A stretch of DNA of 51,051 nt from assembly GCA_027365175.1 (NCBI GenBank), contig DAHXNY010000001.1:1-51051 (forward strand). Reading direction: 5' to 3'. Below, in pieces: positions 1,648-7,921 of this stretch; position 1 is the stretch's first letter, and the number at the start of each line of letters is the position of its first letter. The notes below the pieces were generated by a model. That model did not search any database. It saw only the letters and a program-made list of their open reading frames with translations, and was not told where the DNA came from. This DNA is from Microcaldota archaeon. GTDB taxonomy: Archaea > Micrarchaeota > Micrarchaeia > Micrarchaeales > CABMGC01. Position numbers and translations under genes: made by a program.

Positions 1648-1992
1648 ATGTTTTTAATGATTGGAAAGGAAAGCAGCGATAGCAAGCCCGTTTCGATAGC
1701 AAAGGTACTTGAAGTTCTGGAGCACAGGAAGAAGGGAGGGGAGCTTGGCTATGAGCAGGAGCTTGTCTACGAGTATGCAAAGAAGTTCTCGAAGCTCAGC
1801 GAGTCTGATTCAAAGAAGATGTATAAGGAGCTTGAGGAGCACGGCCTTAGGGACAAGACCGCGTTCAAGATAATAGAGATACTGCCTGTAGACATAGCTC
1901 AGCTAAAACTGATACTTGTAATGGAGAGAAGGGCTCTTGAGGAGCAGGAGATAGCCAATATAATGAAGGTTGTCGATAGCTACAGGAAATAG
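1648..1992 (+). CDS. rpoF: DNA-directed RNA polymerase subunit F (Rpb4)
   Basis: A 114-residue protein matching archaeal RpoF/Rpb4, which pairs with subunit E (Rpb7) to form the polymerase stalk. The HRDC-like C-terminal half is visible: KTAFKIIEILPVDIAQLKLIL and then LEEQEIANIMKVVDSYRK. The length is usual for the family. The ATG at 1648 and a second ATG at 1657 (MIGKESS) are both possible starts; conservation begins after either one. It ends in TAG and is followed 21 nt later by the DUF655 gene. The two genes are neighbours in many archaea and are probably cotranscribed. Confidence 0.92.
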   Translation: MFLMIGKESSDSKPVSIAKVLEVLEHRKKGGELGYEQELVYEYAKKFSKLSESDSKKMYKELEEHGLRDKTAFKIIEILPVDIAQLKLILVMERRALEEQEIANIMKVVDSYRK

Positions 1993-2013: not shown

Positions 2014-2583
2014 ATGGAGGATACGAGAAGAGATAATCTTGAGGAATATGCTATTGTGCTAGACTATATGCCTAGCGGAAGAGCATCTTCTGTAAGTGCG
2101 GAACCTCTGGTGCAGCTTCTGGGGGAGAACAGGTTTACGCTTCTTGAGGCAGCTGCCAAGAAGCATGATATTAAGGCAGGAGAGCGGGTATACATAGGCA
2201 AGCAGGAGCGCGATAAGATCTCCATAATAAAGGGCAGGCTGAACTATTCTGATTTGACGGAAGTGGCGAAGAGCGAACTGCCACGGGCCGTCTATAAGGT
2301 CATAAAAGAGAATGAGAAGCACTTTGTAGAGGTCTTCAACAATGCCTCGCCTCTGAACATAAGGATGCATTCGCTTGAGCTCCTTCCTGGGGTTGGTAAG
2401 AAGCACCTCTCCGCCATACTTGATGCTAGGGAGGAGAAGAAGTTCGAGAGCTTCGCAGACATAAGCAATAGGGTCTCTCTTCTGCAGGATCCTGCAAAGC
2501 TTCTGACCGACAGAGTCATAGAGGAGCTTAAGGGAGACAGCAGGTTCTACATACTGACAAGGCCGCCTAGCGCCACGAGATAG
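2014..2583 (+). CDS. DUF655 family protein (OB-like domain plus HhH)
   Basis: A 189-residue archaeal DUF655 protein. The N-terminal half (EYAIVLDYMPSGR, then ERVYIGKQERDKISIIKGRL) looks like an OB-type fold. The C-terminal half carries a helix-hairpin-helix segment (LELLPGVGKKHLSAILDARE), which suggests nucleic-acid binding. A strong purine-rich ribosome site (ggaggggggagc) lies just before the ATG. It usually sits between rpoF and ksgA in archaea; no ksgA follows here, and the next stretch holds a decayed toxin-antitoxin pair instead. The exact function is unknown. Confidence 0.88.
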   Translation: MEDTRRDNLEEYAIVLDYMPSGRASSVSAEPLVQLLGENRFTLLEAAAKKHDIKAGERVYIGKQERDKISIIKGRLNYSDLTEVAKSELPRAVYKVIKENEKHFVEVFNNASPLNIRMHSLELLPGVGKKHLSAILDAREEKKFESFADISNRVSLLQDPAKLLTDRVIEELKGDSRFYILTRPPSATR

Positions 2584-3118: not shown

Positions 3119-3406
3119 TTATGCCTTTTCCAGGTGCATCTGCGGGACTATCAGCTTCCTCTTCGTGGACTTCGATACCGCTACTTCGACGACGTATGCG
3201 CCTCCGCGCTTCTCAATCACCACGCCTGTCTTTCCCTTGTACCTTGGGTGCGGGATGTCCCTCTTGTTGCCCTTTGGGAGCACGATGACCTTTGCACCTA
3301 TGTCGAAGCTCTTTATCCTCTTTGTAAGTCCAAGCCTTGAAGGATTGTGCTTTTTGGATAAATATCTTGTCCTTCCTGCGAATAACCCATGAGATTTATT
3401 GACCAT
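3119..3406 (-). CDS. rpl21e: Ribosomal protein L21e
   Basis: A 95-residue L21e of the large subunit. Family features seen: an N-terminal HGLFAGRTRYLSKKH segment, IGAKVIVLPKGNKRDIPHPRYKGKTGVV (a KOW-like SH3 barrel) and a basic C-terminus. The length is normal. It is divergent to the TBP-like gene, and the two share the 86-bp gap that carries an A/T-rich promoter at 3451-3462. Confidence 0.95.
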   Translation of the reverse strand: MVNKSHGLFAGRTRYLSKKHNPSRLGLTKRIKSFDIGAKVIVLPKGNKRDIPHPRYKGKTGVVIEKRGGAYVVEVAVSKSTKRKLIVPQMHLEKA

Positions 3407-3450
3407 AGTAACTACCTAAAAATCATTACAGCACTTTCATAAGGCATAAT

Positions 3451-3462
3451 AATATATAAATA
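3451..3462 (+). promoter_or_regulatory. TATA box for the TBP-like gene
   Basis: The motif aatatataaata lies about 31-42 bp before the ATG at 3493. At the archaeal TATA-to-start-site spacing of about 25 bp, the transcript would have only a very short leader. The spacing to the divergent rpl21e start is about 45 bp, so the site may influence both genes. Confidence 0.5.
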
Positions 3463-3492
3463 CCTTTCATTTCATTTATAAATGGCGTTTAT

Positions 3493-3810
3493 ATGGCAAA
3501 AAAACCTACCGTTAAGAGAGCTGGCAAGATAGATGTTAACCCTAAGTTTAAGATTGAGAATATCGTGGCAAGCGCAGATTTGGGCGTAGAGCTCGATCTG
3601 TATGCGATTGCGAAGTCGTCTGCTGACGTGGACTACGAACCTGAACAGTTCCCTGGTGCCATATGCAAGATACATGACCCCAAGACTGCGATACTCCTGT
3701 TCAAGAACGGGAAGATAATCTGCACAGGGGCTAAGACAGAAGCGGACATAAAGCGCGCGATAGGCCAGGTAGTCAAGATAGTGAAGAACTATATATTGGT
3801 AAAATCCTGA
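3493..3810 (+). CDS. Single-repeat (half-length) TATA-binding protein
   Basis: A 105-residue protein with one TBP repeat after a short basic tail. It shows IENIVASADLGVELDL (residues 21-36), YEPEQFPGAICKI (48-60) and ILLFKNGKIICTGAKTEAD (67-85). Archaeal TBP has two such repeats in about 180-190 residues forming a saddle, and TFB binds the second lobe. Here the stop at 3808 is followed directly by the convergent apt gene, and no second repeat is present in any frame. The two phenylalanines that normally wedge into the TATA box in each repeat are present (F53, F70). If functional it would need to homodimerise or pair with another half. The genome may also encode a full TBP elsewhere. The family call is secure; the role is inferred. 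Confidence 0.88.
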   Translation: MAKKPTVKRAGKIDVNPKFKIENIVASADLGVELDLYAIAKSSADVDYEPEQFPGAICKIHDPKTAILLFKNGKIICTGAKTEADIKRAIGQVVKIVKNYILVKS

Positions 3811-3818
3811 TGCACCTG

Positions 3819-4346
3819 TCAGTACTTTATAAGAGATATAATATTGTTACTGCTAAGTCGCTCTCTTCCTTTAAGGAATTCCAGCTCTATCAGGAATATC
3901 AGGCATTTGACGTCGCCTCCCGCTTCTGTTACAAGTTCTGAGGCTGCCTTCGCGCTGCCTCCTGTTGCGAGCAGATCATCCACTATCACTATCCTGCTTC
4001 CTTTCCTCACTGCGTCGGCGTGAATCTCTATGGCTGCATTTCCGTATTCAAGAGCATACTCTCGGCTTATTGTAGTGTAGGGCAGTTTGCCCTTCTTCCT
4101 TATAGGGATGAAGCCCTTGCCGGTCCTGTACGCAAGGGCTGAGCCTATTATGAAACCGCGGGCCTCTATTCCTGCGATGTAATCGAAATCAATAGGCGTT
4201 AACGCATCTGCCAGGCTATCTATCGCCGTAGAAAATGCTTTGGGATCCTGAAGAACAGGAGTTATGTCCTTGAATATTATCCCCTCTTTAGGATAATCCC
4301 TGACCTCTCTTACCAAAGATATTACCTTGTTTAAAGAATTTTCCAT
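3819..4346 (-). CDS. apt: Adenine phosphoribosyltransferase
   Basis: Salvages adenine with PRPP to AMP. Motifs seen: DYPKEGIIFKDITPVLQDP, GIEARGFIIGSALAY, IPIRKKGKLP and the PRPP-binding loop IVIVDDLLATGGSA. The ATG at 4346 (MENSLNKV) is preferred because the 14 residues from the earlier ATG at 4388 are basic and unlike the family. It converges with the TBP-like gene with an 8-bp gap. Confidence 0.93.
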   Translation of the reverse strand: MENSLNKVISLVREVRDYPKEGIIFKDITPVLQDPKAFSTAIDSLADALTPIDFDYIAGIEARGFIIGSALAYRTGKGFIPIRKKGKLPYTTISREYALEYGNAAIEIHADAVRKGSRIVIVDDLLATGGSAKAASELVTEAGGDVKCLIFLIELEFLKGRERLSSNNIISLIKY

Positions 4347-4436
4347 TTTACGACCACGCGCATGCCGTTTAGGCAGACTTATAAACATTTATTAATCCAA
4401 TAAGGTTAATTATTATGCCGTGGCATAGATGATATT

Positions 4437-6970: not shown

Positions 6971-7921
6971 ATGGTACTGGATAACCATGTGGTAGGCATT
7001 CTGGGATTCATACTATACATAGTGATTCTCTTCCTATTTGCAATGAAGGCAGTATTTTTCAGGAGGAGGAAGCTCTACCCTCTTGGAATCGCGTTGCTTC
7101 TGGGAGTAGGGATATCACTGCTTTACAACATGGGCCTGCAGACCATAGTTAGCATACTTTTTGGCATAGTATTGTTCAACCTTGTCCTTTCTGATGAGCT
7201 GCGCAGCATAAGGCTGCTGATAGCAGTAGTGGGATTGATCTTCCTGTTGCTATTTTCAGGAGAGGGTGCATTGGCTTTGGCAGTACCGCTTATGCTCGGC
7301 CTTTCGAGCGAGCTCTTTTCCGAGCGCGAGTACGAGAGCCATGTGAATAACAGGGAGATAGAGATCAAGAGGGATTTTGTCCACCTGTTTGGCGGTGCGC
7401 TGCTGTTTGCAGTATTCCTGCTTCTGGGTTATCCACTTGACGGCTACGTGGTGCAGTATGTGTTTATCTTCGGGCTCCTTGCGGTCTTTTATGCAGAGCT
7501 CTGGAAGAACAGCAGGTTCAGCATGGCCCTTTATAGCATAGAGAAGCACAAGGATTACGTAGGTTATGGTGCAATATGGCTCGGCATAGGCACACTGATA
7601 GCCTATATCTTCATGGATAAGAGCTTCTTCCTTCTGGCCCTTCTTGCGATATACTTTGCCGACCCTGTTGCAACCTTTGCAGGCAATTACTGGAGATCCT
7701 CGAAGCTTCCGCACAACAGGAGGAAGAGCATTGCCGGTTCCTTTTCATACTTCTTGGTTGTGGCCATCCCCGGATATATCCTTGTCGGACCTCTGGCAAT
7801 ACCTTTTGCATTGCTGGGAGCAGCGGTAGAGAGTTTGCCGATCAAGTTGGATGATAACTTCTCTGTGTCGGTGGCGCTTTCATTGCTCTTCCTTGCCCTT
7901 CTCTACATCGGAGTGATCTGA
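6971..7921 (+). CDS. Dolichol/phytol-kinase-like membrane protein
   Basis: A 316-residue polytopic protein with about nine hydrophobic helices. The C-terminal half carries the CTP-dependent polyprenol kinase pattern: RDFVHLFGG (134-142), YFADPVATFAG (228-238) and RRKSIAGS (250-257), as in the Sec59/VTE5/cytidylyltransferase-type family. It would phosphorylate polyprenol to polyprenyl phosphate. It follows the DUF2070 gene by 11 bp in the uppS operon and converges on nuoM with no gap. The specific substrate is inferred. Confidence 0.75.
   Translation: MVLDNHVVGILGFILYIVILFLFAMKAVFFRRRKLYPLGIALLLGVGISLLYNMGLQTIVSILFGIVLFNLVLSDELRSIRLLIAVVGLIFLLLFSGEGALALAVPLMLGLSSELFSEREYESHVNNREIEIKRDFVHLFGGALLFAVFLLLGYPLDGYVVQYVFIFGLLAVFYAELWKNSRFSMALYSIEKHKDYVGYGAIWLGIGTLIAYIFMDKSFFLLALLAIYFADPVATFAGNYWRSSKLPHNRRKSIAGSFSYFLVVAIPGYILVGPLAIPFALLGAAVESLPIKLDDNFSVSVALSLLFLALLYIGVI

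Follow-up and report, generated by a model that had tools for sequence, protein, structure and literature searches.

The window analyzed here, a stretch of DNA of 51,051 nucleotides, carries at 3493-3810 of the forward strand a gene confirmed as a complete and intact TATA-binding protein (TBP) of one repeat, without truncation. It is quite probable that its product is a basal TBP reduced to a single lobe, acting as a homodimer in which the saddle is rebuilt and descended from a two-repeat TBP that collapsed. The positions of the gene, its key codons and its neighbors are listed in Table 1.

Table 1. Positions of the single-repeat TBP gene, its key codons and neighboring features in the window, with two related frames from other genomes.
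Feature	Position	Strand	Basis
rpo4 (RNA polymerase subunit Rpb4), conserved neighborhood	1648..1992	+	Pfam, synteny
DUF655 gene, conserved neighborhood	2014..2583	+	Pfam, synteny
rpl21e, divergent neighbor marking the conserved tbp locus	3119..3406	-	Pfam L21e; adjoins TBP in nearly all families tested
Candidate promoter of the TBP gene: TAATATATAAATA and 10-bp palindrome ATTTATAAAT (3474-3483)	3450..3483	+	sequence only
Single-repeat TBP gene, 105 aa, stop included	3493..3810	+	Pfam TBP, sole genome match, AF2 model
Codon N23 of IENIV, presumed minor-groove Asn beside the dyad	3559..3561	+	invariant in single repeats
Codons E49-P-E51-Q-F53, putative TFB-contacting-loop glutamates and first intercalating Phe	3637..3651	+	invariant in 45 single-repeat relatives
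Codon F53, intercalating Phe	3649-3651	+	invariant in 45 single-repeat relatives
Codon F70, presumed second intercalating Phe	3700..3702	+	invariant in 45 single-repeat relatives
Phosphoribosyltransferase (APRT-like), convergent	3819..4388	-	Pfam Pribosyltran
Divergent TBP-like frame, example	G450:C7:25815-26012		
Divergent TBP-like frame, example	G195:C1:420110-420310		

The open reading frame runs uninterrupted from ATG to TGA and encodes 105 residues. It matches the Pfam TBP family PF00352 with E = 9.1e-30 and a score of 102.8 bits (cut-off 22.9), and residues 18-100 cover all 85 profile positions (1-85) once, from end to end of the domain. The NCBIfam models of full-length TBP were aligned over just half of each model, with scores well under their cut-offs, the best being 95.7 against 255 for PRK00394, a model of two repeats in a chain of about 180-190 aa that the 105-aa chain does not match. 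Aligned to solved archaeal TBPs, the protein showed no preference for the first or the second repeat. The single 105-aa repeat described in the initial annotation is thus borne out by the full, one-time coverage of PF00352, as is its clean frame end with no second repeat in any frame: the six-frame search returned a single match, and the convergent APRT-like gene starts 9 bp past the TBP stop, leaving no room for a second repeat. A truncated gene, frameshift or assembly artefact is scarcely credible. In its favor, the chain has half the usual length and derives from a metagenome assembly, but the same length recurs in many independent assemblies, in many genera and in other phyla, with dN/dS of about 0.02. 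A frameshift was rejected on the equal length and C-terminus in independently assembled members of the genus (L011, L014, and L019), relative to which codon comparison gave dN/dS of 0.013-0.022; the gene is under strong purifying selection.

The residues facing DNA and the transcription factor TFB are intact. N23, which we take from established TBP structures to be the minor-groove Asn adjacent to the dyad, is also invariant in both repeats of tandem TBPs, and F70 is presumably, on the same structures, an intercalating Phe. T78 is present, so that the intercalating Phe pair and the minor-groove Asn and Thr are all found. F53 and F70 were pointed out in the initial annotation, and both stand at those positions and do not vary across 45 single-repeat relatives. 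Regarding the TFB-facing side, the YEPEQFPG motif suggests that E49 and E51 correspond to the Glu pair of the TBP loop that contacts TFB (PMC7221094). The C-over-N log odds of the protein amount to -8.5 bits, compared with means of -72 for canonical N repeats and +73 for canonical C repeats, and it therefore cannot be assigned as a distinct N-type or C-type repeat. The blend of first-repeat and second-repeat traits noticed earlier is real, but it is not peculiar to this gene and marks the whole clade. A simple N/C crossover chimera was also considered and rejected, since the diagnostic residues alternate along the sequence with no single switch.

The AF2 monomer model has a pLDDT of 89.9 and matches one half of a solved TBP structure with an rmsd of about 1 Å, whereas the model of L129, a natural tandem whose lobes are nearly identical, with a pLDDT of 95.8, matches the whole TBP with its full saddle. 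The first strand comprises 11 residues in both lobes of the tandem and 6 in the lone lobe, as would be expected where this edge has no partner strand. Weak matches to OGG1 were returned by Foldseek.

In the source genome (795 kb, 89% complete), this gene is the only TBP match of a six-frame search. The check for a second TBP or a missing half proposed in the initial annotation thus led back to the gene itself, and no second TBP was found in the source genome with PF00352 or with a profile built from divergent B copies of TBP, which recovers the A gene at 1e-39. Each of 25 phylum genomes with a completeness of 90% or more, among them a single contig of 771 kb, carries exactly one TBP repeat; were gaps independent, the probability of a second gene being missed in every one of them would be about 1e-29. 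Over 15 such genomes the B-type profile detected no second gene, its one marginal match falling within a 988-aa frame that is unrelated.

Within Micrarchaeota, single-repeat frames occur in the family of the window (f1), its sister f2, and f13-f24, and two repeats in one frame occur in f3-f12. One genome with single-lobe TBPs also includes an 8 kb contig bearing a canonical two-repeat TBP (L146, G159:C43), which is probably contamination, possibly from a host archaeon. Confinement of the single-lobe TBP to one phylum was rejected, the same form being present in a second phylum (that of G261). There, most members have a single-lobe TBP in frames mostly of about 88-167 aa, and some have two or three such genes; one genome of this phylum holds a 726-aa frame with four TBP repeats (G224:C8:9538-10695) and, on C3, a further TBP of two repeats. 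In the phylum of G252, the third, TBPs are mostly of the two-repeat form with the same signature, and many of its genomes carry, besides the two-repeat TBP, an additional single TBP-like frame that is strongly diverged, of about 95-118 aa with E of about 1e-4 to 1e-7. A viral origin was rejected, viral contigs having yielded no relatives.

The gene lies at the orthologous tbp locus, which in sister families holds the two-repeat TBPs. Whether a family has the two-repeat or the single-repeat form, TBP and rpl21e point away from each other, and rpo4 and DUF655 lie alongside. Elsewhere in the window, at 6971-7921, a 316-aa hydrophobic protein with no Pfam match lies between DUF2070 and an antiporter-like gene.

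The genome also encodes a canonical TFB, one in number, as a 353-aa frame on C22 with a zinc ribbon and two cyclin folds, aligned to the TFB of 1d3u and 1ais. Its BRE-reading helix is kept and is close to that of Pyrococcus TFB in 1d3u. No BRE/TATA motif was resolved among 121 upstream regions of the source genome. BRE+TATA-like motifs were observed in two single-gene relatives, AA..TTTATATA in G032 and AA.gcTTTAAA in G168, and both cover a full box, about 8 bp long. In single-gene genomes the TATA core is nearly palindromic, and the same holds for controls; palindromy was dropped as a sign of homodimerization, the asymmetry overlapping between single-lobe and canonical control genomes.

A homodimer is the simplest working form, since the lone lobe corresponds to half a TBP, the tandem to a whole one, and the edge strand lacks a partner. 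Two identical subunits would pair via their first strands to rebuild the two-lobed saddle, and the dimer would sit on a roughly palindromic TATA box with a TFB-binding loop at both ends. Promoter direction may then be chosen by a single TFB reading the BRE. The homodimer had been proposed in the initial annotation, and it gains support from the sole TBP, the conserved tbp locus and the strong purifying selection, while the dimer, its geometry and the direction rule are what we infer. A monomer is very unlikely. One lobe would grip half of the TATA box while TFB adds the remaining contact and the bend, which is in keeping with the stabilization of weak TBP-DNA complexes by TFB in many archaea (PMC7289017), but the first sheet strand would be left without a partner and half of the box unread, and the motifs found cover the whole box.

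The lobe might instead pair obligately with a divergent B-type single-lobe TBP lost from the assembly, an unlikely arrangement. Separate A and B genes do occur in nearly all sampled members of f2 and in many f1 genera, and the complete genome of Micrarchaeum A_DKE has one of each. The B-type paralogue may be the partner in an A/B heterodimer. However, that paralogue is absent from several f1 genera, and no B gene was detected, even by the B profile, in the source genome, its genus mates G002, G003, and G005, or near-complete representatives of genera g2, g10, g18, g24, and g25. The B copies (L169, L170, L172, L175, L177-L185, and L343 in f1 and f2), which carry IQNIVVSADLHA, are located outside the tbp locus. 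In other archaea, additional TBPs modulate transcription, and a modulating paralogue, dominant negative or regulatory, beside a normal two-lobed TBP was the other reading offered initially. It is highly improbable. No full TBP was found in the source genome or in the 25 relatives at least 90% complete, two-lobed TBP is missing from the single-gene relatives, and the gene sits at the orthologous locus; a two-lobed TBP would have to lie in the missing 11% of the assembly and to have been lost in all relatives.

The two lobes of two-repeat Micrarchaeota TBPs are unusually similar, sharing 50-74% identity (mean 62%), where 21 TBPs from other archaea range over 39-55% (mean 48%). The phylum contributed 99 repeats, all of which group in a single clade (100/99). 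Together with two further phyla of the same signature, a 96-row clade was obtained (100/99), located next to the C repeat of G231 (97/86), a genome that keeps a canonical TBP; the canonical N repeats are cleanly grouped on the opposite side (99/99). The best trees nest the three-phylum clade on the canonical C side. An origin on the branch between N and C is possible, since trees with the canonical C repeats held together were not rejected (AU p 0.32 and 0.51). In a weakly resolved marker tree (L21e, Rpo4, and DUF655), the two-repeat families fall nearly together with single-repeat families around them.

The lobes of the L129 tandem are each other's nearest kin, as are those of L359, which lies inside a group of single-repeat proteins; a tree holding these single-repeat proteins together was not rejected (p 0.30). 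L024 (G021:C39) and L060, at a contig end, comprise the final 33 codons of one repeat, then a linker and a full repeat. L024 appears to be a fresh in-frame tandem duplication still in progress, identical at 98 of 99 bases, its contig ending inside the first repeat. The sequences suggest that TBP duplication was replayed in some lineages (L129, L359, and L024), although gene conversion could mimic such a replay. Repeat loss, followed in certain lineages by re-duplication, is a better fit than a pre-duplication relic: most likely, a canonical two-repeat TBP was reduced to one repeat, most like the C-terminal one, before these DPANN phyla diverged, and some lineages then doubled it anew, either in tandem or by forming separate genes. 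Survival of a pre-duplication form is unlikely, and it is quite unlikely that the three DPANN phyla never had the canonical duplication, with the single-lobe homodimer as a survivor and the tandems as independent later replays. Of the earlier idea of an ancestral TBP, the resemblance in form stands, whereas direct descent from the pre-duplication ancestor is unlikely according to the trees.

Compared with canonical archaeal TBPs (M. jannaschii 2z8u, P. woesei 1pcz/1ais, and S. acidocaldarius 1mp9), the protein shares the lobe fold, the DNA-facing Phe, Asn, and Thr, the YEPEQFPG loop, the TFB partner and presumably the basal role. It differs in having one lobe rather than two, in a symmetric sequence that is neither N- nor C-type, and in KNGK where the canonical protein has SSGK. 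The two-repeat Micrarchaeota TBPs (f3-f12, e.g., L129) belong to the same locus and repeat clade, but carry two lobes of nearly identical sequence on one polypeptide. Bacterial TBP-domain proteins (the RNase HIII N-domain and glycosylases) likewise place a single TBP-like domain on nucleic acid according to the literature, but as parts of enzymes rather than as promoter factors.

TBP is treated as universally two-lobed, and its ancient duplication is regarded as beyond reach. Brindefalk et al. in 2013 reportedly dealt with single-lobe archaeal TBPs, as cited by Ravarani et al. 2020. In one sentence of the methods of the latter (PMC7221094), single-lobe archaeal TBPs are identified, with organism and role not given. 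The one-lobed form is common to that report and the present protein, and its existence was therefore already known; sole-TBP status, distribution, locus and history are added here. No account of the function, sole-TBP role or distribution of a single-lobe archaeal TBP was found in the searchable literature, to which Brindefalk 2013 does not belong, and the sole-TBP role, distribution and history appear to be undescribed. Basal transcription on one lobe would make the proposed homodimeric ancestor directly testable, and a symmetric TBP raises the question of how promoter direction is set. The natural tandems of nearly identical lobes provide intermediate states for study.
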